The translations under genes and the position numbers were made by a program. This document shows, in pieces, positions 18,768 to 30,979 of a stretch of 40,885 nt of DNA; within the stretch, counting starts at the first letter, position 1, and every line of letters begins with the position of its first letter. Below the pieces are notes generated by a model, which was given only the letters and a program-made list of their open reading frames with translations, made no database searches and had not been told where the DNA came from. Origin of the DNA: Rubrivivax sp. (GTDB lineage: Bacteria > Pseudomonadota > Gammaproteobacteria > Burkholderiales > Burkholderiaceae_C); assembly GCA_021298085.1 (NCBI GenBank), contig JAJTDE010000026.1, forward strand, positions 1 through 40,885, read 5' to 3'.

Positions 18768-21314
18768 GTGAACGCTGCCTGGGAGGGCCCGTCGCGCAAG
18801 GCTGTGCGTTGGGGCAAGACGCTGCCGGCACCGGCCCTGCTGCCGGGCCTGATGATGGCGTGGCTCGCCGGGACGGCCTGGCAGTTGCAGCAGCCCCGCC
18901 TGCTGGTGCATGTGTTCAGCCCCGCAGCCGTGGCGCTGGCCTTGGCCGCGCTGGTCGGTTTGGGCCTGATCGCCACCTGGGGTCTGCGGCGCTGGCCTGG
19001 CCGGCGCCTGGTGGTGCTGGCGACCTGCGTCGCCGCGGTGGCCTTCTGCGTGGCCGAAGCGCGGGCCTCCTGGCGTCTGTCGCAGGCGCTGCCGGCGTCC
19101 CTCGAGGGCCGTGATCTGCTCATCGAGGGCCGCGTCCAAGGTCTGCCGCGGTTCATGCCGGAAGGGGTGCTGTTCGAGGTGCGGGTGGAATCGTCCAGGC
19201 TGGCCGGCAAGCCGGTGCAGCTGCCGCCGGCCATCAGCCTGGGTTGGTATCGCGGCTTTGATGGCGAATCGCTGGTGGCGGAGCCTCCGATGCCTGTCCG
19301 GGCGGGTGACCGCTGGCGCTGGACGGTGCGGCTCAAGCGGCCCCATGGCCTGATGAACCCCCATGGGTTTGACCTCGAACTGTGGCTGTTCGAACGTGGC
19401 CTGGGGGCCACCGGCATGGTGCGCGGTGAAGCCACCTGGCTGGGCAGCAGCGGCGAAGACCGGCTTGACCGCTGGCGGCAGCAGCTGCGCGACGGGTTGC
19501 TGCGGCGTGCCGAGCGCGAGGCCGACAACCCGGCCGAGGCCAATGCGGCCGGTGTGCTGGCTGCGCTGTCGGTGGGGGACCAATCCTCCATCGACAAGGC
19601 CGGCTGGGAGCTGTTCCGCGTGACCGGCGTCAGCCATCTCATGAGCGTGAGCGGGCTCCACGTCACCATGTGGGCCTGGGTGGCCTCCGTGCTCGTGGGG
19701 CAGCTGTGGAGCCGTTCGGTGACGCTGCTGCGCCACTGCCCGGCCCCGGTGGCGGCGCGCTGGGGCGGCTTGCTGCTGGCGCTGGCCTATGCGCTGCTGG
19801 CGGGCTGGGGGGTGCCCGCGCAGCGTACGGTCTGGATGCTGGCCGTGGCCACGGTGATGCAGGGCAGCGGCCGCCTGTGGCCGGCCCACTGGGTACTGCT
19901 CGTGGCCGCCACGGTGGTGGTGGTGCTGGACCCATGGGCGCTGTTGCAGGTGGGCTTCTGGTTGTCGTTTGTCGCGGTGGCGATGCTGATCCTCTCGGGT
20001 GACAGCCAAGCGGCCGTGGCGGTGTTCGACATCGGGGCGCAGGTGCGGGCGGCCTTGCGCACCCAATGGATGGCCACGCTCGGGCTGGCACCATTGACGC
20101 TGCTGTTCTTTCAGCAGCTGTCGGTCGTGGGCTTCCTCGCCAACCTCTTTGCCATCCCCTGGGTCACGCTGGTGGTCACACCCTTGGCCATGCTGTCGGT
20201 GGTGCTGCCCGCCCTGCAGCCGTCGGCAGAGGGTGCTGTCGGGGTGCTGATGGCTGTGCTTGAGCCGCTGTCGCGGGGCCCCTGGGCGACATGGTCGGCT
20301 GCGGCGGCTGCACCCTGGGTGGCGCTGGCGGGCCTGCTGGGCGGCGTGCTGGCCATCGCGCCACTGCCGCTGGGCCTGCGCATCTGTGGTGCGTGCCTCA
20401 TCGTGCCGATGCTCCTGTCCAGGGCAGACGCACCGGAGTGGGGCGAGGTGCGCCTGGTCGCCTTGGATGTCGGGCAGGGCACGGCGTTCTCGGTTCAGAC
20501 GCAGCACCACCGTCTGCTCTACGACACCGGCCCCACGTATGGCCGTGGCGCCGCGCCGTCGGATGCCGCGTCCCGTGTGCTGCTGCCCTGGCTGCGTTCA
20601 CAGGGCCAGCCACCCATCGACCGCCTGGTGTTGAGCCATCGCGACACTGACCACACCGGCGGTGCGCGGACCCTGCTGGCCCAGGCGCGTGTGCACAGCA
20701 GCCTCAGTTCGTTGGAGGACGGGAATCCCTTGCTCGCGCAGTTGCCGCGTCACCAGCGGTGCGAGGCCGGCCAGCACTGGGTGTGGGACGGCGTGCGCTT
20801 TGAGGTGCTGCACCCTGCGCGCGATGACTACGAGCGTGCCCTCAAGCCGAATGCCTTGAGCTGCGTCGTCCGCGTGCATGACCGTCATGGGCCGCGGGTG
20901 CTGCTGACGGGTGACATCGAGGCTGCCCAGGAAGCCGAACTCGTTCGGCGTCTGGGGCACTCCCCGCCAACCGACGGCAGCCCTGGCACGCTGCATGCAA
21001 GCATCCTGATGCTGCCGCACCATGGCAGCCAAACCTCCAGCAGCCCGGCATTCTTGGACGCAGTGCACGCGCAAATCACCTTGGCACAGGCTGCCTACCG
21101 CAGCCGCTTCGGCCATCCGGCACCCACCGTGGTGGAGCGTGTGCAGTCACGCGGTGCGCTTCTCTACCGCAGCGATGCCTGTGGCGCCTGGCAGTGGCCT
21201 TCTTCGCCCGCCCCGACGCCGGTACATGCTGCCGGCCCGGCCAACCCCGTGGACCCTGGCTTCTGCGAGCGCGACCGCAGCCGCCGCTACTGGCATCATC
21301 CGGGCGAGCCGTGA
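18768..21314 (+). CDS. comEC: DNA uptake channel ComEC/Rec2
   Basis: ComEC forms the inner-membrane channel for single-stranded DNA in natural transformation. The 848-residue protein has an N-terminal DUF4131 segment (about 30-190), the polytopic Competence domain (about 245-530, including VSGLHVTMWAW near 294) and a C-terminal metallo-beta-lactamase-like domain with VALDVGQGTAF, H624-x-D626-x-D628-H629 (HRDTDHTGG), LLTGDIE and LPHHGS, so the metal site looks complete. The GTG at 18768 is the start; the final 40 residues are a low-complexity tail. No other com or pil gene is in view. Two hairpins sit at its stop before the next operon. Confidence 0.94.
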   Translation: MNAAWEGPSRKAVRWGKTLPAPALLPGLMMAWLAGTAWQLQQPRLLVHVFSPAAVALALAALVGLGLIATWGLRRWPGRRLVVLATCVAAVAFCVAEARASWRLSQALPASLEGRDLLIEGRVQGLPRFMPEGVLFEVRVESSRLAGKPVQLPPAISLGWYRGFDGESLVAEPPMPVRAGDRWRWTVRLKRPHGLMNPHGFDLELWLFERGLGATGMVRGEATWLGSSGEDRLDRWRQQLRDGLLRRAEREADNPAEANAAGVLAALSVGDQSSIDKAGWELFRVTGVSHLMSVSGLHVTMWAWVASVLVGQLWSRSVTLLRHCPAPVAARWGGLLLALAYALLAGWGVPAQRTVWMLAVATVMQGSGRLWPAHWVLLVAATVVVVLDPWALLQVGFWLSFVAVAMLILSGDSQAAVAVFDIGAQVRAALRTQWMATLGLAPLTLLFFQQLSVVGFLANLFAIPWVTLVVTPLAMLSVVLPALQPSAEGAVGVLMAVLEPLSRGPWATWSAAAAAPWVALAGLLGGVLAIAPLPLGLRICGACLIVPMLLSRADAPEWGEVRLVALDVGQGTAFSVQTQHHRLLYDTGPTYGRGAAPSDAASRVLLPWLRSQGQPPIDRLVLSHRDTDHTGGARTLLAQARVHSSLSSLEDGNPLLAQLPRHQRCEAGQHWVWDGVRFEVLHPARDDYERALKPNALSCVVRVHDRHGPRVLLTGDIEAAQEAELVRRLGHSPPTDGSPGTLHASILMLPHHGSQTSSSPAFLDAVHAQITLAQAAYRSRFGHPAPTVVERVQSRGALLYRSDACGAWQWPSSPAPTPVHAAGPANPVDPGFCERDRSRRYWHHPGEP

Positions 21315-21345: not shown

Positions 21346-21426
21346 TGCGGCCGGCGCGACCTGGCCAGGCTGTTTGGCGCACGCTTCTCTGGCAGACTTT
21401 CGAACAACCCCCAACGGAGACTTCTC

Positions 21427-24400
21427 TTGTCCATCCACGTCGCGCTCCATCACGTCACCCGTTATCGGTATGACCGACGCGTGAACCTGTCTCCGCAGAT
21501 CGTGCGCTTGCGGCCAGCGCCCCATTGCCGCACGCCGATCCTGTCGTATTCGCTGCGCATCGAGCCGGAACCGCATTTCATCAACTGGCAGCAGGACCCG
21601 TTTGCCAACCACCTGGCGCGCCTGGTGTTCCCGGAAAAGACCGATGTATTCACGGTGACGGTGGACCTCGTCGCCCAGATGTCGGTCTACAACCCCTTCG
21701 ACTTCTTCCTCGAACCCTCGGCCGAGCATTACCCGTTCCGCTATGAGGCCGATCTGGCCCACGACCTGGCCCCCTACCTGGCCCGTGACCCGGCCACACC
21801 CCTGTTCGATCAGCTGATCAAGAGCGTCTCGCGCGACACGCAGCGCACCATCGACTTTCTGGTCGGGCTGAACCAGCGACTCCAGAACGACATCAGCTAC
21901 CTGATCCGCCTGGAGCCCGGCGTGCAGACGCCCGAGGAAACCTTGAGGTTGCGGTCCGGTTCCTGCCGCGACACCGGCTGGCTGCTGGTGCAGCTGCTGC
22001 GACACCTGGGCCTGGCGGCGCGCTTTGTCTCCGGCTACCTGATCCAGCTCAAGCCCGATGTGAAGGCGCTGGATGGCCCCAGCGGTGCCGAGGTCGACTT
22101 CACCGACCTGCACGCCTGGTGCGAGGTCTACCTGCCGGGCGCCGGGTGGATCGGCCTGGACCCGACATCGGGGCTGATGGCGGGTGAAGGCCATATCCCG
22201 GTCGCCTGCACACCCGAGCCCTCCACGGCCGCCCCGGTGAGCGGCGCAGTGGACTCCTGCGAGGTGGAGTTCGAGCACCAGATGCAGGTGACGCGCATCC
22301 ACGAATCGCCGCGCGTGACCAAGCCCTACACCGAGGAACAGTGGCAGGCCATCGACGCGCTGGGGCGCGATGTCGACGCTGTGCTGTCCGACAACGATGT
22401 CCGGCTGACGATGGGTGGCGAGCCGACCTTCGTGTCCGTGGTTGACCGTGAGGGCGCCGAGTGGAACTCGGCCGCACTCGGCCCCACCAAGCGGGGCCTG
22501 GCCACCGAACTCACGCACCGCCTGATGCAGCGTTACGGCCAGGGCGGCTTCCTGCACTTCGGCCAGGGCAAGTGGTACCCGGGTGAACAGCTGCCACGCT
22601 GGGCCCTCACGATTGCCTGGCGTGCCGATGGCCAACCCTGCTGGCAAGACCCCTCGCTGTTTGCCGACGAGCGCAAGCCGCACCGCTATACCGCGGCCGA
22701 TGCGCGGCGCTTCATCGACGGCCTGACGCAGCGGCTCGGCCTGTCTGAGCGCTTTGTGCAGCCCGGCTTCGAGGACACCTGGTACTACCTGTGGCGCGAA
22801 CGCCGCCTGCCCGTCAACGTCGACCCGCACCACAGCCGGCTCGACGACGAACTGGAGCGGGCCCGCTTGCGGCGCATCTTCGACCAGGGCCTGGCGGCAG
22901 AGGTGGGTTACCTGCTCCCGCTGCAGCGCACCTGGTTCCAGGGTGATACCGGCCCTCGCTGGGTCACCGGCCCCTGGTTCATGCGCGACGAACGCCTCTA
23001 CCTCATCCCGGGTGATTCGCCCATGGGTTGGCGCCTGCCGCTGGACAGTCTGCCCTGGGCCCAGCCGGCTGAGCGTCAGGCGGTCTTCGAGCAGGACCCG
23101 TTTGCAGCCAAGGCACCGTTGCCGGCCGCCGTGGAACTGCGTCGGCAGTGGCCCCTGTCCACGTCGGGCAGGGCTGCGCTTGCTGGCGCGGCTGCCGCCG
23201 TTGCGCCTGGCTTGCCCGCCAACACCCGGCCCGAAGGCGCTGACGATGACCACCCGGCGGACACGGTGCAAGGCTGGCCCGCCGGCAGTGTGTCGCCGCT
23301 GGGCTTGGCCTCTGGCCTTTCCAGCTCGCACACGCCCACGCGGCCGCACCCCCGCGGCCTGGTTGCCCGGCCAGGTCAGGCGGAATCGGCTGGCTGGCTG
23401 ACGCGCACCGCCCTGTGTGTCGAGGTGCGTGACCCGCAGCGCGCCAACGGCCCGCAGGCTGAGGCGGCGCACGGCGGCCGCAGCGGGGTGATGTATGTGT
23501 TCATGCCGCCGCTGCAGTACCTGGAGGATTACCTCGAGCTGCTGGCCGCCATCGAGGCCACGGCGGCCGAGCAGGGCGTGAAGATCGTGCTGGAGGGCTA
23601 CCCGCCGCCGCGCGACGCCCGCCTGAAGTTGCTGCAGGTGACGCCCGACCCGGGTGTCATCGAAGTCAACATCCACCCGGCCCACAACTGGGCCGAGCTG
23701 GTCGACCACACCGAGTTTCTGTACGAGGCCGCCCACCAGACGCGCCTGTCCACCGAGAAGTTCATGCTCGATGGCCGCCACACCGGCACGGGTGGCGGAA
23801 ACCACTTTGTGCTGGGTGGGGCCACACCGGCCGACAGCCCCTTCCTGCGCCGGCCTGACGTTCTCGCCAGCCTGCTGGCCTACTGGCACAACCACCCCAG
23901 CCTGAGCTACCTGTTCAGCGGGATGTTCATCGGCCCGACCAGCCAGGCACCGCGCGTTGACGAAGCGCGCAACGACCAGGTCTACGAGCTCGAGATCGCC
24001 CTGGCCGAGCTGGAGCGGCAGACAGCCGGTGGGGTGTCGGTGCCGCCATGGCTGATCGACCGCATCCTGCGCAACCTCCTGATCGACGTCACCGGCAACA
24101 CCCACCGCGCCGAGTTTTGCATCGACAAGCTCTATTCCCCCGATGGCCCGACGGGCCGTCTGGGCCTGCTGGAACTGCGCGCCTTCGAGATGCCGCCCCA
24201 CGCGCGCATGAGCCTGGTGCAGCAACTGCTGCTGCGCACGCTGCTGGCGTGGTTCTGGCGCGAACCGTATCGGGGTGGCAGCCAGACGCGGCTGACCCGC
24301 TGGGGGACAGCCCTGCACGATCGATTCCTGTTGCCCACCTTCCTGCAGATGGACTTCGACGACGTGGTGGCCGAACTCCAGCAGGCCGGCTTTGCGTTCG

Positions 24401-24975
24401 ACACAGCCTGGTTTGCACCCCACCTCGAATTCCGCTTTCCGAAGATCGGCAGCACCGCGGTGGCGGGCATCGCGATGGAACTGCGCGCGGCGCTCGAACC
24501 CTGGCATGTCATGGGCGAGGAGGGTGCGCCGGGTGGTACCGCCCGCTACGTCGATTCCTCTCTGGAGCGGCTGGAGCTGAAAGTCAATGGCCTGAACGAC
24601 AACCGCCACGTGGTCACCGTCAACGGGCAGGCCGCGCCGTTGCAGCCCACGGGGCGGGCAGGCGAATATGTCTGCGGTGTGCGTTACCGCGCCTGGCAGC
24701 CGCCGTCGGCACTGCACCCCACCATCGGAACCCATGTGCCGCTGACCTTCGACATCGTGGACAACTGGCTCAGCCGCTCACTGGGTGGCTGCCGCTACCA
24801 CGTGGCGCACCCCGGTGGCCGCAACTACGACACTTTCCCCACCACGGCCTATGAAGCCGAGAGTCGCCGCCTGGCGCGCTTCTTCGCCCACGGCCACACG
24901 CCAGGGAAGATGCAGGTGCAGCCAGGACGCGTGAGCGCCGAGTTCCCCAGCACGCTCGATCTGCGCAGGGCTTGA
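21427..24975 (+). CDS. transglutaminase-like / DUF2126 putative amidoligase fusion
   Basis: A 1182-residue cytoplasmic-looking protein. Residues about 1-90 are the bacterial transglutaminase N-terminal domain, 160-260 the transglutaminase core with triad C180 (RSGSCRDTGW), H229 (TDLHAWCEVY) and D245 (GLDPTSG). From about 370 onward is DUF2126, a family predicted to be an amidoligase of glutamine-synthetase-like fold; E746/N748 (VIEVNIHPAHNW) and H785 to H793 (DGRHTGTGGGNH) are its likely ATP/metal residues. The start is TTG at 21427, preceded by GGAGA, giving SIHVALHHVTRYRYD; the longer frame upstream runs through comEC. A low-complexity Ala/Pro stretch (about 570-680) interrupts DUF2126. It is first gene of the five-gene operon. 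Confidence 0.88.
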   Translation: MSIHVALHHVTRYRYDRRVNLSPQIVRLRPAPHCRTPILSYSLRIEPEPHFINWQQDPFANHLARLVFPEKTDVFTVTVDLVAQMSVYNPFDFFLEPSAEHYPFRYEADLAHDLAPYLARDPATPLFDQLIKSVSRDTQRTIDFLVGLNQRLQNDISYLIRLEPGVQTPEETLRLRSGSCRDTGWLLVQLLRHLGLAARFVSGYLIQLKPDVKALDGPSGAEVDFTDLHAWCEVYLPGAGWIGLDPTSGLMAGEGHIPVACTPEPSTAAPVSGAVDSCEVEFEHQMQVTRIHESPRVTKPYTEEQWQAIDALGRDVDAVLSDNDVRLTMGGEPTFVSVVDREGAEWNSAALGPTKRGLATELTHRLMQRYGQGGFLHFGQGKWYPGEQLPRWALTIAWRADGQPCWQDPSLFADERKPHRYTAADARRFIDGLTQRLGLSERFVQPGFEDTWYYLWRERRLPVNVDPHHSRLDDELERARLRRIFDQGLAAEVGYLLPLQRTWFQGDTGPRWVTGPWFMRDERLYLIPGDSPMGWRLPLDSLPWAQPAERQAVFEQDPFAAKAPLPAAVELRRQWPLSTSGRAALAGAAAAVAPGLPANTRPEGADDDHPADTVQGWPAGSVSPLGLASGLSSSHTPTRPHPRGLVARPGQAESAGWLTRTALCVEVRDPQRANGPQAEAAHGGRSGVMYVFMPPLQYLEDYLELLAAIEATAAEQGVKIVLEGYPPPRDARLKLLQVTPDPGVIEVNIHPAHNWAELVDHTEFLYEAAHQTRLSTEKFMLDGRHTGTGGGNHFVLGGATPADSPFLRRPDVLASLLAYWHNHPSLSYLFSGMFIGPTSQAPRVDEARNDQVYELEIALAELERQTAGGVSVPPWLIDRILRNLLIDVTGNTHRAEFCIDKLYSPDGPTGRLGLLELRAFEMPPHARMSLVQQLLLRTLLAWFWREPYRGGSQTRLTRWGTALHDRFLLPTFLQMDFDDVVAELQQAGFAFDTAWFAPHLEFRFPKIGSTAVAGIAMELRAALEPWHVMGEEGAPGGTARYVDSSLERLELKVNGLNDNRHVVTVNGQAAPLQPTGRAGEYVCGVRYRAWQPPSALHPTIGTHVPLTFDIVDNWLSRSLGGCRYHVAHPGGRNYDTFPTTAYEAESRRLARFFAHGHTPGKMQVQPGRVSAEFPSTLDLRRA

Positions 24976-24978
24976 CGC

Positions 24979-27561
24979 GTGACCGGGTTGCCGCGCCAGC
25001 CGTCGGGCCAGCAGCAGTCGCAGGGGCTGCTGCCGCTGCCGCCTGTGGAGGCGGCGGTGTCGGCCACTGATGTGCTGCTGCGGCGTGCATGGCCGATGGA
25101 GCCCGGCGTCTACGACGAGTGGCGTGAATCCCACCACCGGCTGCGGCCGCACTGGCAGCGTTTTGCCTCGGCCATGCCGGCACCCTTGCAGGGGCTGGAC
25201 CTGTCGTCCAGCCTGGACCGCCGCCGCCAGCAGGTCATCGACCGCATCCGCCAGGATGGCGTCACGCACAACGTCTTCAGCGACGGCGGCGTGGCCGCGC
25301 GGCCCTGGTCGCTGGAACTGCTGCCGCTGATCATCGAAGCGGGTGAGTGGGCCGGTATTGCGGCGGGACTTCAGCAGCGCGCCGAGCTGCTGCAGCGCTT
25401 GCTGGACGATGTCTACGGCCCGCAGCGCATGCTGCATGAAGGTTTGCTGCCGCCGGCCCTGGTGCTGCGCCACCCGGGTTATCTGCGCCCGTTGCAGGAG
25501 GTGAGCACGCCCAGCGGCCGCCGCCTGCACATCGTGGCCTTTGACATCACCCGTGCCGCCGACGGCCGCTGGTGGCTGATGGCGCAGCGCACCCAGGGCC
25601 CCAGCGGGCTGGGCTACGTGATGCACAACCGGCTGGTCGTATCCCGGCAGTTCTCCGACGCCTTCCGCGAGCTGCAGGTGCAGCACCTGGCCAGCGGCTT
25701 CCGCCAACTGTTGTCCTCACTGGAAGCGGATGCCCGTGTCGTGGCGCGCGGGGCCACGCCGCGCATTGTGCTGCTCACACCTGGCCCGTACAGCGAGACC
25801 TATTTCGAACACGCCTACCTGGCCCGCTACCTGGGCATCCCCCTGGTGGAAGGCAGCGACCTCACCGTGCTGGGCGAGAGCCTCTACATGAAGACGGTCG
25901 ACGGCCTGGAGCCCGTGCATGGTGTCCTGCGGCGGCTGGACGATGACTTTTGTGACCCGCTGGAGCTGCGTGCGGATTCCGCCCTGGGTGTGCCTGGCCT
26001 GGTGCAGGTGGTGCGCGCTGGCCGGGTGGTGATGGCCAATGCGCTGGGCAGCGCCTGGCTGGAATCACCGGCGGTGCTGGGTTTTCTGCCCGGCATTGCC
26101 CAGCGGTTGTTGGGCGAGCCCTTGCTGATGCCAGCGGTGCCCACCTGGTGGTGTGGTGAACCCGCGGCCTGGGCCGATGTGCGCGGGCAGGGTCGCCACA
26201 AGGTGCTGCGCAGCACTTTCCCGCGCGGCGGTCGAACCACCCAGGTGCATGCCTTCTCCGAGGCCCTCATCGAGGAAGACCCAGACGCCTGGACGCTGCA
26301 GACGCGCCTGCGGTTTTCCCGGGCGCCCATCTGGAGCGATGGTGCGGTGCAACTGCGCCCGGCGCTGCTGCGGGTCTACGCCATCTGCGACACCGACGGC
26401 CGCTGGCAGGTATTGCCCGGTGGCATGACACGTGTGGCCCCGCGCGAAGACGCCAGCTTGTCGATGCAGCGTGGCGGCACCAGCCTGGACACCTGGGTGG
26501 TGGGCGACGGCCCTGCCGAGCCTGACCAGCCGGTGCAGCAGCGCCTGAGCCTGGCCGAGCTGGAGCAGCGACAGGGCTCGGTCAGCAGCCGCACCGGCGA
26601 GAACCTGTTCTGGATGGGGCGCTACACCGAGCGCACCGAACAACAGCTGCGGCTGACACGCCTGCTGCTGCAGCTGATGGACGACGACGAGGATGTCGAG
26701 GCGCCGCTGCTGCAGCTGCTGTCCAGCCTGGCGGTGGACAACGGCCTGGCACCCCAGGGCGTGCCCACCCTGCTGCAGAGCGAACCCATGTTCCGCCGGG
26801 CCCTGTTGGCCGGCCTGGTGGACCCTCAGAGCTTCAGCATCGGCTTCAACCTGAGCGCGCTGGAACGCACGGCCCATGCGGTGCGCGAGCGCCTGTCGCC
26901 CGAGCAGTGGAAGCTGTGCCGCGACATGCGCGAGGAGTGGTTCAGCGTCTTCGAGCCCGGCGGCACACGCCCGCCCGGTGTCGGGCAGATGCAAACCGCA
27001 CTCGAACGGCTGGCGCTGCAGCTGGCCGCCGCCACGGGCGGGCAGACCGACCGCATGGGGCGCGACCACGGCTGGCGACTGCTGATCGTGGGTCGCCTGC
27101 TGGAACGGCTGATCGGGCTGGCGCATGTCCTGCAGCGTTTTGCCGAGAAGGGCCGCGCACTGACCTCGGCCGGTGTGGACGCCCTGCTGGACCTGTTCGA
27201 CAGCGCCATCCCGTTCAGGGCGCGATACCAGCGCCACGACGACCTGCTGGCGTTGTCGGAACTGCTCATCGTGGACGACACGCACCTGCGTTCGCTGGCG
27301 GGTGTGCTGCGGCGCCTGCGCACCGAGACCCGCAAGTTACCGGGTACCGATGCCTGGCGTGCCAGCCTGCTGGCCCGCCTGCCCGCAGAAGGCGCGGGGC
27401 TGAGCCTGGCGCAGGTGGCCGCGCTGGATGACCCTGCGCTGTTTGGCCTGGTGGCCCGCCAGTGCCGCGTGCTGCGGGAGACCGCGCTGCGCCTGGCCGA
27501 CGACATCAGCCATTACTATTTTTCGCTGCCTGGTGGGCAGGACGAGGCGCAGCGGGTATGA
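24979..27561 (+). CDS. circularly permuted ATP-grasp (type 2) fused to alpha-E domain
   Basis: An 860-residue protein. Residues about 60-500 form the circularly permuted ATP-grasp domain (DUF404/DUF407), seen in QDGVTHNVFSDG, RTQGPSGLGYVMHNR, and TPGPYSETYFEHAYLARYLG. From about 530 to 850 is an alpha-E (DUF403) helical domain starting SRTGENLFWMGRYTERTEQQ. ATP-grasp enzymes of this kind are predicted peptide or amide ligases; the alpha-E role is unknown. In the segment HKVLRSTFPRGG, R411 occupies about the place where related proteins have an ATP-contacting lysine. The second alpha-E ER motif is degenerate (LLERLIGLAHV). GTG start at 24979, 3 bp after the preceding stop. Confidence 0.87.
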   Translation: MTGLPRQPSGQQQSQGLLPLPPVEAAVSATDVLLRRAWPMEPGVYDEWRESHHRLRPHWQRFASAMPAPLQGLDLSSSLDRRRQQVIDRIRQDGVTHNVFSDGGVAARPWSLELLPLIIEAGEWAGIAAGLQQRAELLQRLLDDVYGPQRMLHEGLLPPALVLRHPGYLRPLQEVSTPSGRRLHIVAFDITRAADGRWWLMAQRTQGPSGLGYVMHNRLVVSRQFSDAFRELQVQHLASGFRQLLSSLEADARVVARGATPRIVLLTPGPYSETYFEHAYLARYLGIPLVEGSDLTVLGESLYMKTVDGLEPVHGVLRRLDDDFCDPLELRADSALGVPGLVQVVRAGRVVMANALGSAWLESPAVLGFLPGIAQRLLGEPLLMPAVPTWWCGEPAAWADVRGQGRHKVLRSTFPRGGRTTQVHAFSEALIEEDPDAWTLQTRLRFSRAPIWSDGAVQLRPALLRVYAICDTDGRWQVLPGGMTRVAPREDASLSMQRGGTSLDTWVVGDGPAEPDQPVQQRLSLAELEQRQGSVSSRTGENLFWMGRYTERTEQQLRLTRLLLQLMDDDEDVEAPLLQLLSSLAVDNGLAPQGVPTLLQSEPMFRRALLAGLVDPQSFSIGFNLSALERTAHAVRERLSPEQWKLCRDMREEWFSVFEPGGTRPPGVGQMQTALERLALQLAAATGGQTDRMGRDHGWRLLIVGRLLERLIGLAHVLQRFAEKGRALTSAGVDALLDLFDSAIPFRARYQRHDDLLALSELLIVDDTHLRSLAGVLRRLRTETRKLPGTDAWRASLLARLPAEGAGLSLAQVAALDDPALFGLVARQCRVLRETALRLADDISHYYFSLPGGQDEAQRV

Positions 27562-28526
27562 CAGGGGTTCAGCTCGACACGGCGCGGCTCATCGATGTCG
27601 TGCACGAGACACGCTACGTGTACGCGATGCCGGTGTCACAGTCTCACCATGTGGCCTACCTGACGCCGCTGGTGGACGCCCACCAGCAGGTACTGGCCCA
27701 CCACATTGACATCGAACCCGCACCCAGCGCACGTCACACCCGCAGCGACAGCCACGGCAACAGCAGCCTTCACTTTGCCCTGACACAGCCGCACCGTGAA
27801 TTGCGCGTCACGCTGGCCTGCCGCGTGGGTGTTCAACCGCGGTTCGCGGGGCTGCGCGCGGCGCAGTCGATGCCCTGGGAGCGCATGCGTGACCGGCTGC
27901 GCTACGTGGCCGGTGCCGTGTTTGACCCGGCGGTGGCCTATGCACAGCCGTCACCCCGCGTGCCACGCCTCGATGCGCTGCGGCAGTACGCCCAGGCCAG
28001 CTTCACCCGTCAGCGGCCGTTGGCCGACGCGGCCATCGACCTCATGCAGCGGGTTTACCGTGACTTTGAATACCGGGCCGAATCCACGCAGGTCGATACG
28101 CCGCTGGAAAAGGCGCTTGCCCAGCGCAGCGGGGTCTGCCAGGACTTTGCCCAGGTGATGATCGGTGCCTGCCGGATGCTCGGTGTGCCGGCCCGTTATG
28201 TCAGTGGTTATCTGCTCACGCAGGCGCCGGGCGGCGGTGACAAGCTGGTGGGTGCCGACGCCAGCCACGCCTGGGTGCAGGTCTATGTGCCGGGCACCCC
28301 CGGTGTGCCGGCCGACGGCTGGCTTGACCTGGACCCGACCAACAACCGCGTCGCCGGCCTGGAGCACGTGCGCCTGGCCGTCGGCCGTGACTTTGCCGAT
28401 GTCACCCCGCTGCGTGGCGTCGTCCGTGGCGGCGGCAAGCACACCCTCAGCGTGGGTGTGACCACCCGCAGTCCAGAGCCCTCTCCCTCAAGCCAACAAC
28501 GCTCCCTCAAGGCAGGAACCGCATGA
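27558..28526 (+). CDS. transglutaminase family protein (stand-alone)
   Basis: A 322-residue protein with the bacterial transglutaminase N-terminal beta domain (about 10-95, VHETRYVYAMPVSQSHH) and a papain-like transglutaminase core. The triad is C194 (RSGVCQDFAQ), H237 (DASHAWVQVY) and D259 (WLDLDPTNN), so it appears catalytically intact. Proteins of this type in ATP-grasp/alpha-E clusters are thought to act as peptidases or amide-bond transferases rather than as classical cross-linking enzymes. No signal peptide is seen. The ATG at 27558 overlaps the previous stop (ATGA), and its own stop overlaps the next ATG in the same way. The last 30 residues are low-complexity Ser/Pro-rich. Confidence 0.9.
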   Translation: MTGVQLDTARLIDVVHETRYVYAMPVSQSHHVAYLTPLVDAHQQVLAHHIDIEPAPSARHTRSDSHGNSSLHFALTQPHRELRVTLACRVGVQPRFAGLRAAQSMPWERMRDRLRYVAGAVFDPAVAYAQPSPRVPRLDALRQYAQASFTRQRPLADAAIDLMQRVYRDFEYRAESTQVDTPLEKALAQRSGVCQDFAQVMIGACRMLGVPARYVSGYLLTQAPGGGDKLVGADASHAWVQVYVPGTPGVPADGWLDLDPTNNRVAGLEHVRLAVGRDFADVTPLRGVVRGGGKHTLSVGVTTRSPEPSPSSQQRSLKAGTA

Positions 28527-29956
28527 AACACCCCTTTGACGAGATGCATGGGCTGCAAGGCGCCGTCCGTGAGCCCTACGCCCAGTACGAGCGCTGGCTG
28601 CAGGCCCAGCCCGCTGACGTGATGCACGCCCGTCGCAACGAAGCCGAGGTGATCTTCCGGCGGGTGGGCATTACCTTCGCGGTGTACGGCGCCAAGGACG
28701 AAGATGGCGCAGGCACCGAACGCCTGATCCCCTTCGACCTCATCCCCCGCGTGATCCCGCGGCAGGAGTGGCAGGACATGGAACGTGGGCTGGTGCAGCG
28801 GGTCACCGCACTGAACCGCTTCATCGAGGACGTCTACCACGGCCAGGAGATCCTGAAGGCCGGGCATGTGCCGGCCGACGCGGTGCTCAACAACGCGCAG
28901 TTCCGGCCCGAGATGTCTGGCGTCAAGGTGCCCGGCGGCGTGTATTCGCACATTGCCGGCATCGACATCGTGCGCGCCGGTGAGGCCGACGGCAGCGGGC
29001 GCTACTACGTGCTGGAAGACAACCTGCGTGTGCCCAGCGGCGTGAGCTACATGCTGGAAAACCGCAAGATGATGATGCGGCTGTTTCCGGAACTGTTTGT
29101 GCAGAACCGCGTGGCGCCAGTGGCGCACTACCCCGACTTGCTGCTGGAGACGCTGCGCGCGGTGGCGCCCGCCGCCGTCAACGAACCCACCTGCGTGGTG
29201 CTGACGCCGGGCATGTACAACAGCGCGTATTTCGAACACGCGTTCCTGGCGCAGCAGATGGGCATCGAGCTGGTCGAGGGCCAGGACCTCTTTGTCAAGG
29301 ACGACTTTGTCTACATGCGCACCACGCAGGGCCCCAAGCGTGTAGACGTGGTCTACCGGCGCGTGGACGACGACTTCCTGGACCCGCGGGCCTTCCGTCC
29401 TGACAGCACGCTGGGCTGTGCCGGCCTGCTGGATGTCTACCGCAAGGGCAACATCACACTCTGCAACGCGATTGGCACGGGTATTGCTGACGACAAGAGC
29501 ATCTATCCCTACGTGCCGAAGATGATCGAGTTCTACCTCGGCGAAAAGCCCATCCTGCACAACGTGCCCACCTACCTCTGTCGCGAGGCTGACGACCTGT
29601 CCTATGTGCTGGCGCACCTCGACGAACTGGTGGTCAAGGAAGTCCACGGTGCCGGCGGCTACGGCATGCTGGTGGGCCCCGCGGCCAGCAAGGCCGAGAT
29701 CGAGGAATTTCGCGCGGTGCTCAAGGCCAACCCGGCCAACTACATCGCCCAGCCCACGCTGAGCCTGTCCACCTGCCCCACCTACGTGGAACAGGGCATC
29801 GCGCCGCGCCACATTGACCTTCGTCCCTTTGTGCTGTCGGGCAAGACGGTGCAGATGGTGCCCGGTGGGCTCACCCGCGTGGCGCTCAAGGAGGGCTCGT
29901 TGGTCGTGAATTCATCACAGGGCGGCGGCACCAAGGACACCTGGGTGCTGGAATGA
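28523..29956 (+). CDS. circularly permuted ATP-grasp protein (stand-alone)
   Basis: A 477-residue protein matching the stand-alone version of the permuted ATP-grasp family (CP_ATPgrasp_1; DUF404/DUF407). Visible family segments are FDLIPRVIPRQEW near 71, YYVLEDNLRVPSGVSYMLEN near 160, LTPGMYNSAYFEHAFLAQQ near 230, and the glycine-rich VVKEVHGAGGYGMLVGP near 370 whose lysine is expected to contact ATP. Unlike the fused paralogue at 24979-27561, these nucleotide-site residues look intact. It is expected to catalyse ATP-dependent carboxylate-amine ligation, substrate unknown. ATGA overlap links it to the upstream transglutaminase; the alpha-E gene follows after 54 bp. Confidence 0.92.
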   Translation: MKHPFDEMHGLQGAVREPYAQYERWLQAQPADVMHARRNEAEVIFRRVGITFAVYGAKDEDGAGTERLIPFDLIPRVIPRQEWQDMERGLVQRVTALNRFIEDVYHGQEILKAGHVPADAVLNNAQFRPEMSGVKVPGGVYSHIAGIDIVRAGEADGSGRYYVLEDNLRVPSGVSYMLENRKMMMRLFPELFVQNRVAPVAHYPDLLLETLRAVAPAAVNEPTCVVLTPGMYNSAYFEHAFLAQQMGIELVEGQDLFVKDDFVYMRTTQGPKRVDVVYRRVDDDFLDPRAFRPDSTLGCAGLLDVYRKGNITLCNAIGTGIADDKSIYPYVPKMIEFYLGEKPILHNVPTYLCREADDLSYVLAHLDELVVKEVHGAGGYGMLVGPAASKAEIEEFRAVLKANPANYIAQPTLSLSTCPTYVEQGIAPRHIDLRPFVLSGKTVQMVPGGLTRVALKEGSLVVNSSQGGGTKDTWVLE

Positions 29957-30010
29957 TGGCTTCCACGATTCAGGCTATTGGCTGACGACGGTTCACAGGA
30001 TTCGACGACC

Positions 30011-30979
30011 ATGCTCTCAAGAACGGCCGACCACCTCTTCTGGATGTCACGCTACATGGAACGCGCCGAGAACACGGCGCGCATGCTGGACGTGAATTAC
30101 CAAACATCGCTGCTGCCGCAATCGGCCGACATGGCCGAGCAGGGCTGGCGGGGCTTGCTGAGCATCAGCGAGCTCACCAGTTCGTTCAGCCAGCGTGGCC
30201 AGCCGGTCACCGCGCGCAACGTGATGGATTTCATGGTGCGCGACGAGAACAACCTCTCCAGCATCTGGAGCTGCCTGCGCGCTGCGCGCGAGAATGCCCG
30301 CGCGGTGCGCGGCACCCTGACGACCGAGGTCTGGGAGACGCAGAACCAGACCTGGCTGGAATTCAACCGCCTGCTGAAGGAGGGCGCCTTCGAGCGCGAC
30401 CCTGGCGCCTTCTTCGAGTGGGTGAAGTTCCGTTCGCACCTGAGCCGGGGCGTCACGGTGGGCACGATGCTGATGGACGAGGCGCTGCACTTCATCCGCA
30501 TCGGCACCTTCCTGGAGCGCGCCGACAACACGGCGCGGCTGCTGGATGTGAAGTACCACGCGTTGACGGGCGGCGACTACTTTGCCCCACCGGGCAACGT
30601 GAAGGAACACCAGGAGATCGACTTCTACCACTGGAGCGCCATTCTGCGGTCGGTCTCGGGCTTCGAGATCTACCGCAAGGTCTACCGCAACGTGATCCAG
30701 CCGTCCAAGGTGGCGGAACTGCTGATCCTGCGACCCGACATGCCCCGTTCACTGGCGGCCTGCATGAACGAGGTGGTGGCCAACCTGCAGCAGGTGGCCA
30801 ACCAGCAGAGCGCCGAGACGCTGCGGCGTGCCGGCCGTCTGCAGAGTGACCTGAAGTACGGCCGGATTGACGAGATCCTGATGACCGGGCTTCACGCCTT
30901 CCTGACGCAGTTCCTGGACCGCGTCAACGACCTGGGCGCGGGCATTGGCCGCGATTTCCTGGTGCCCATAGCCGCCTGA
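30011..30979 (+). CDS. alpha-E domain protein (DUF403)
   Basis: A 322-residue all-helical protein of the alpha-E family, named for conserved Glu-containing helices. Two clear ER motifs are present: residues near 15 (FWMSRYMERAENTARML) and near 172 (FLERADNTARLLDVKY). It has no enzymatic motif and no signal peptide; in related clusters it always accompanies the permuted ATP-grasp protein and may bind its substrate. The ATG at 30011 is preceded by AGGA; an in-frame TTG at 29978 is an alternative. It closes the operon, followed by a perfect GC palindrome 108 bp downstream. Confidence 0.9.
   Translation: MLSRTADHLFWMSRYMERAENTARMLDVNYQTSLLPQSADMAEQGWRGLLSISELTSSFSQRGQPVTARNVMDFMVRDENNLSSIWSCLRAARENARAVRGTLTTEVWETQNQTWLEFNRLLKEGAFERDPGAFFEWVKFRSHLSRGVTVGTMLMDEALHFIRIGTFLERADNTARLLDVKYHALTGGDYFAPPGNVKEHQEIDFYHWSAILRSVSGFEIYRKVYRNVIQPSKVAELLILRPDMPRSLAACMNEVVANLQQVANQQSAETLRRAGRLQSDLKYGRIDEILMTGLHAFLTQFLDRVNDLGAGIGRDFLVPIAA

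Follow-up and report, generated by a model that had tools for sequence, protein, structure and literature searches.

A predicted five-gene amide-bond cluster of Rubrivivax sp. combines an intact ATP-grasp/alpha-E pair with a fused copy that is likely a pseudo-ligase

Within a stretch of 40,885 nt (contig JAJTDE010000026.1 of the Rubrivivax sp. assembly GCA_021298085.1; the whole stretch is called the window below) five neighbouring genes on the + strand at 21427..30979 encode a transglutaminase-like (TG) domain fused to DUF2126 (gene 1), a circularly permuted ATP-grasp fused to an alpha-E domain (gene 2), a TG-like protein (gene 3), a stand-alone ATP-grasp (gene 4) and a stand-alone alpha-E protein (gene 5). 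We find that the ATP-grasp of gene 2 is likely a conserved non-catalytic copy (pseudo-ATP-grasp), that gene 3 belongs with the fusion gene 2 and not with the split pair of genes 4 and 5, and that the working ligases are likely gene 4 and, judged from its modelled fold, the DUF2126 end of gene 1. Taken together we consider it probable that the operon is an ATP-driven system for making and breaking amide bonds of the Anbu-associated kind, with genes 4 and 1 as ligation module, cysteine hydrolases, and the pseudo-ligase fusion as scaffold or regulator. The literature credits the predicted amide-synthesis system to Iyer et al. 2009 (the published sources cited here were available in part). The kind of system is thus already known; its functional division is corrected here, and its link to nitrogen can be tested.

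To compare both types of ATP-grasp, 64 stand-alone and 21 fused sequences and then 148 stand-alone and 129 fused ones, all non-identical, were aligned and numbered according to gene 4. The signature residues E165, N167, K325, D432 and N463 are all present in 146 of the 148 stand-alone sequences, the remaining two being gapped at N463, and gene 4, which has every one of them, is predicted to be an active ligase. No fused sequence keeps even one of these five (0/129), and R169 is found in 148/148 stand-alone vs 0/129 fused sequences. The glycine loop behaves similarly, with G378, Y380, G381 and M382 each in 148/148 and G379 in 147/148 stand-alone sequences vs 14, 3, 5, 1 and 38, respectively, of the 129 fused ones; in gene 2 itself neither the five residues nor the loop are found. 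Decay is not apparent, as the fused class is conserved at 36–63% identity to the gene 2 protein, whose closest named relatives (among the best 80 of 582 matches) are from Rubrivivax and related Burkholderiales with 58–63% identity over the best segment. One might suppose that the active site of the fused ATP-grasp has shifted and that it still functions as a ligase, which would give two ligation steps, since the class conserves its own motifs WWCG (127/129) and TQ[AG]PSG (104/129), both found in 0/148 stand-alone sequences (part of the fused set was itself retrieved by these motifs), and retains D148 (125/129), R434 (128/129) and K372 (87/129, with R in 30); against the loss of all five signature residues and of the loop, we regard this as improbable.

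The alpha-E part of the fusion retains both ER motifs (E17 in 122, R18 in 123, E169 and R170 in 124 each of 124 sequences) as well as R100 (123/124). The majority of the polar residues that are invariant in stand-alone alpha-E is gone: E94, N95, E109, T152, D172 and R176, each kept in at least 143 of 147 stand-alone sequences, occur in only 2, 2, 2, 0, 8 and 4 of the 124 fused ones, and R93 and N112 in 26 and 15. The simplest reading of these alignments would be that gene 2 arose by duplication and fusion of the gene 4/gene 5 pair, lost its catalytic role and was retained as a partner. An earlier note on this DNA had seen here two versions of one set and inferred two sequential ligation/trimming steps. 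Fused and split sets indeed stand in tightly linked genes, but their equivalence and with it two sequential ligations are not supported, given a fused ATP-grasp without signature, a fused alpha-E stripped of most invariant polar residues and a gene 3 that partners gene 2. A literature search found no paper on a fused ATP-grasp–alpha-E protein, Iyer et al. 2009 being outside its reach.

The grouping of the genes follows from a neighbourhood survey of 120 order-level genomes, 80 family-level genomes and 80 named loci (the best 80 of 582), to each locus set of which the window was added. Order-level gene orders were taken from 78 stretches, with L113 (a repeat of L065) dropped and L111, L112, L114 and L115 taken as proteasome homologues, and the 40 family-level stretches were picked by hand. 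A TG was scored as gene-3 type from 195 bits upwards against the protein of the window (190 in the named-loci and adjacency counts); other single-domain TGs reach up to 148 bits, mostly 59 to 134. On the same strand, a gene-3-type TG adjoins the fused gene in 21/22 order-level, 29/30 family-level and 76/81 named loci, and DUF2126 is close to it in 19/22, 27/30 and 69/81, some of the misses being contig ends. The company of the gene 4/gene 5 pair varies: it may be Anbu, another TG type or DUF2126, and some pairs stand alone. Because gene 3 and DUF2126 accompany the fused gene and the pair varies in its partners, we read the cluster as a three-gene module (genes 1–3) next to a two-gene module (genes 4 and 5).

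At order level alpha-E is present in 63, Anbu in 59, DUF2126 in 40 and the fused gene in 21 of the 120 genomes, and the alpha-E set includes every one of the 40 DUF2126 genomes and of the 21 fused-gene genomes, the 21 also falling within the 40. In the family-level match table the fused gene is found in 55 and the stand-alone ATP-grasp in 71 of 80 genomes, with one genome (65% complete) having the fused gene and no match to the stand-alone ATP-grasp. The gene order of the window recurs in seven other family genomes (L118–L124), with genes 2–5 only in L117, and in 15/80 named loci including Rubrivivax and Aquabacterium; some genomes may be common to the family and named sets, and of the remaining 65 named loci many end at contig edges. 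With the fused gene and the five-gene order this widespread, the combination is not rare. Richer versions were seen as well: in L188 a tandem copy of the DUF2126 gene and of the fused ATP-grasp–alpha-E gene comes directly after genes 1–5, and alpha-E matches four times in genome G028 (L057, L058), where one stretch holds two stand-alone ATP-grasp/alpha-E pairs together with a fused gene and Anbu, and a third pair lies elsewhere.

An AlphaFold2 model and structure comparison predict a glutamine-synthetase (GS) fold for DUF2126, and it is this prediction that places a likely working ligase at the end of gene 1 besides gene 4. The Cys-His-Asp triads, described in the earlier note as complete in both transglutaminases, are conserved in both types when read by motif (Cys, His and Asp each 65/65 in the gene-1 type; C 49/49, H 49/49 and D 47/49 in the gene-3 type). 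For gene 4, E165, N167, K325 and K372 can be matched by eye to E330, N332, K498 and K533 of E. coli GspS, which we take to have roles in metal and ATP binding. The chemistry assumed for gene 4 rests on homology and on measurements of phosphate released by an ATP-grasp from an Anbu operon (PMC6376114). The model of gene 5 gave no Foldseek PDB match at E ≤ 0.001.

Anbu, a proteasome homologue that usually shares the operon of such genes, is found in 58/63 alpha-E genomes vs 1/57 others at order level (uncorrected for kinship of the genomes). In the host genome (5.06 Mb, 349 contigs, the window being C197) a permuted ATP-grasp adjoining alpha-E and TG-like genes are present in the cluster, genes 1 and 3 being of the fused-gene-associated and not of the Anbu-cluster type, and Anbu is encoded outside the operon on another contig (L116, G000:C302:23439-24263). 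With the Pfam proteasome model alone, the matches there were limited to an HslV-like gene (L001) and a homologue of 192 aa (L002); the idea that Anbu is absent was rejected after the Anbu of a relative found its match (70% identity, confirmed by profile). The host genome therefore has three proteasome homologues. L002 (G000:C250:17436-17939), possibly of the BPH type, adjoins by eye an apparent dihydrolipoamide acyltransferase gene. Four of the five alpha-E genomes lacking Anbu carry the fused gene (p 0.04), a weak lead to the possibility that the three-gene module replaced Anbu where it is missing.

We also searched about 350 bp upstream of the genes for sigma-54-like sites (TGGCACN5TTGCW with GG and GC intact), counting the window in both sets and using shuffles that kept base composition only. 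With at most one mismatch such a site precedes the stand-alone ATP-grasp in 33/60 order-level cases (shuffles 0.3–0.5%) and in 11/41 family-level cases (shuffles 0.7–1.2%, reverse strand 1/41), and with at most two mismatches in 40/60 and 34/41 (shuffles 2.4–3.4%). Before the DUF2126 gene it is found with at most one mismatch in 7/39 and 8/27, and before Anbu in 1/53 and 0/8 order- and family-level cases, respectively. NtrC-like palindromes with at most one mismatch precede the stand-alone ATP-grasp in 16/60 (shuffles 0.0%) and 4/41 (0.2%), with at most two mismatches in 30/60 and 10/41. The predicted sites of the split pair across much of the order agree with the published induction of related genes by nitrogen starvation (PMC5491218, PMC7801951, PMC8050072). 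Relatives sharing the window order have a site with up to two mismatches before gene 4 in 7/8 (L117–L124) and in 12/15 named loci (130 bp searched), and before gene 1 in 4/7 and 10/11 of those scored (first copies). Most of these relatives thus have the site just before gene 4, where in the window genes 3 and 4 overlap.

Several points weigh against the proposed amide-bond system and its nitrogen link. According to the available part of PMC6376114, YbAnbu showed neither peptidase activity nor specific interaction with its operon partners. The DUF2126 model has a mean pLDDT of 72.7 and gave no Foldseek match under E 0.001, and the equivalences with GspS rest on motifs matched by eye because no real alignment between it and the ATP-grasp family came out of HH-suite. 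Three family-level stretches (L117, L125, L134; stretches, not whole genomes) have the fused gene without DUF2126, which also tells against a strict nesting of the one within the other. The order-level reverse-strand control shows sigma-54-like sites in 4/60, above the shuffles, and the Anbu gene PP_2685 changed 1.12, 1.45 and 4.81 in three strains, a clear rise in one only (PMC7801951). Finally, the operon in the window has no recognisable sigma-54-like site before gene 1 or gene 4. Its control has therefore probably changed in the host genome, which does possess rpoN: relatives probably have two nitrogen-controlled units, the host genome one unit under other control. A sequence at the position of the relatives' site before gene 1 (Table 1) is possibly a remnant. 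We do not take as promoters a sigma-54 match without mismatch at 29473, which lies within gene 4, and one with a single mismatch at 20984, within comEC, since the window holds 37 matches with at most two mismatches vs 31.6 expected by chance. Nor do we claim an NtrC-like palindrome with two mismatches at 21142, likewise within comEC.

In the amide-bond system that we favour, gene 4 together with gene 5 would activate a carboxylate with ATP and join it to an amine, and the GS-like domain of gene 1 may form another amide bond, either in addition or as an alternative. On such bonds the TG-like domains would act by cutting, transfer or deamidation, gene 2 would bind the active pair as a non-catalytic partner and regulate or scaffold it, and Anbu, encoded elsewhere in the genome, could act as downstream hydrolase. 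In relatives, NtrC and sigma-54 would switch the system on when nitrogen is short.

What is joined might be a free small molecule, a peptide-like compound or polyamine amide made as GspS makes glutathionylspermidine and trimmed or recycled by the TG-like enzymes and Anbu, with no protein being tagged. The only solved relative, 3n6x, was deposited as putative glutathionylspermidine synthase, some motifs resemble E. coli GspS by eye, and the structural neighbours of the GS-fold domain include the small-molecule ligases YbdK and GmaS. Among ORFs of at least 100 codons in the order-level loci no widely recurrent extra gene fits as substrate protein, which also favours this possibility, but no dedicated transporter or tailoring gene recurs either, the most widespread cluster of a possible further partner being an ABC ATPase family in 12 loci, and the almost perfect co-occurrence with the proteasome homologue Anbu speaks against it. 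We regard it as a reasonable possibility, if a somewhat doubtful one. The clusters listed in a first pass for partner genes were mainly antisense shadows of known genes and were discarded. A further type of bacterial tagging system, in which GS-fold and ATP-grasp ligases controlled by the pseudo-ATP-grasp attach an amide-linked mark to proteins for recycling during nitrogen starvation, the TG-like enzymes edit it and Anbu reads or removes it, is in our opinion unlikely. Also unlikely is a salvage of nitrogen in which the TG-like enzymes of starving cells would free ammonia from the side chains of glutamine, with the ligases repairing or protecting proteins: the nitrogen-starvation control in relatives, the two conserved TG triads and the ammonia release by TG suggested in PMC6376114 would fit, but two ligase folds and a conserved pseudo-ligase are left unexplained.

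Four known systems resemble the favoured amide-bond system in part. The Pup-proteasome system combines the GS-fold ligase PafA with a proteasome, and it shares with the present one a GS-fold ligase connected with nitrogen stress and with a protein of the proteasome family; here, in contrast, the ligase is fused to a TG domain and accompanied by ATP-grasps. The E. coli glutathionylspermidine synthetase/amidase (Gss) likewise pairs a ligase with an amide hydrolase, and its E-x-N, Lys and Gly motifs match gene 4 by eye, but no profile alignment was found, the hydrolases here are TG-like and alpha-E accompanies the ligase. Genes 4 and 5 correspond to the ATP-grasp and alpha-E of the Anbu operon, which consists of ATP-grasp, alpha-E, transglutaminase and Anbu (PMC6376114, PMC5666114) and whose Anbu is present in the same genome, although on another contig; its TG type is missing from our operon, and the module of TG-DUF2126, fused ATP-grasp–alpha-E and TG is added. 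In the available text of both reports no role of Anbu or of its partner genes is confirmed by experiment, and PMC5666114 knows of no AAA+ partner of Anbu. In the NtrC-dependent cluster I35_5080-83 of B. cenocepacia (DUF404/407, DUF403, TG and a large TG protein; PMC5491218) a stand-alone ATP-grasp and alpha-E also stand beside TG proteins, one of them large, whereas a fused ATP-grasp–alpha-E gene is not named in the available part of that report and the window has no recognisable sigma-54 site. The inactive transglutaminase of PMC12096838 is a different protein and the rlo operon of PMC12239564 a different system, and PMC9284123 proved unrelated in the text available. For the richest version of the system it can now be predicted which ligase should work and which should not and which genes group together, and in much of the order nitrogen starvation is linked with its regulation, so that an open question turns into direct tests of one candidate ligase, one growth condition and one pseudo-enzyme partner.

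The layout, coordinates and junctions given in the earlier note were all reproduced, and its assignment to the predicted amide-synthesis system is supported (Table 1). A 3-bp gap separates genes 1 and 2, ATGA overlaps join genes 2/3 at 27558 and genes 3/4 at 28523, and 54 bp lie between genes 4 and 5; from the overlaps the operon is likely one transcription unit. Relatives have TTG or GTG starts at the position of the gene 1 TTG (21427), which supports this start. Pfam recovered every family far above the cut-off, with DUF2126 (1333.7 bits), Bact_transglu_N and Transglut_core in gene 1, CP_ATPgrasp_2 (434.6 bits) and Alpha-E (160.6 bits) in gene 2, Transglut_core (82.0 bits) in gene 3, CP_ATPgrasp_2 (559.5 bits) in gene 4 and Alpha-E (341.9 bits) in gene 5. 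At E ≤ 0.001 NCBIfam gave no match for any of the five proteins, and the host genome outside the operon no further match to PF04168 (Alpha-E), PF04174 (CP_ATPgrasp_1), PF08379 (Bact_transglu_N) or PF09899 (DUF2126).

Table 1. Genes of the operon and the upstream sequence discussed in the text, with positions in the window.
Feature	Position	Strand	Start codon	Assignment	Basis
Gene 1	21427..24975	+	TTG	TG-like domain fused to DUF2126	Pfam, triad, AlphaFold2 model, structure comparison
Gene 2	24979..27561	+	GTG	likely pseudo-ATP-grasp (circularly permuted) fused to alpha-E	Pfam, residue losses, match to 3n6x
Gene 3	27558..28526	+		TG-like protein, C-H-D kept, partner of gene 2	Pfam, gene adjacency
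Gene 4	28523..29956	+		circularly permuted ATP-grasp	all signature residues, homologue of 3n6x
Gene 5	30011..30979	+	ATG	stand-alone alpha-E	all-helical model
TGGCGC-N5-TCTCT	21375..21390	+		possible sigma-54 site remnant	52 bp before gene 1, at relatives' sigma-54-like position; -12 half mismatched

Directly upstream of the operon lies a ComEC-type competence gene (18768-21314), whose relatives are found in seven other order-level loci, probably as a shared chromosomal order. ARAGORN found no tRNA in the window. Close to the contig start, at 727-2028, there is a tyrosine integrase gene with an Arm-DNA-binding domain.
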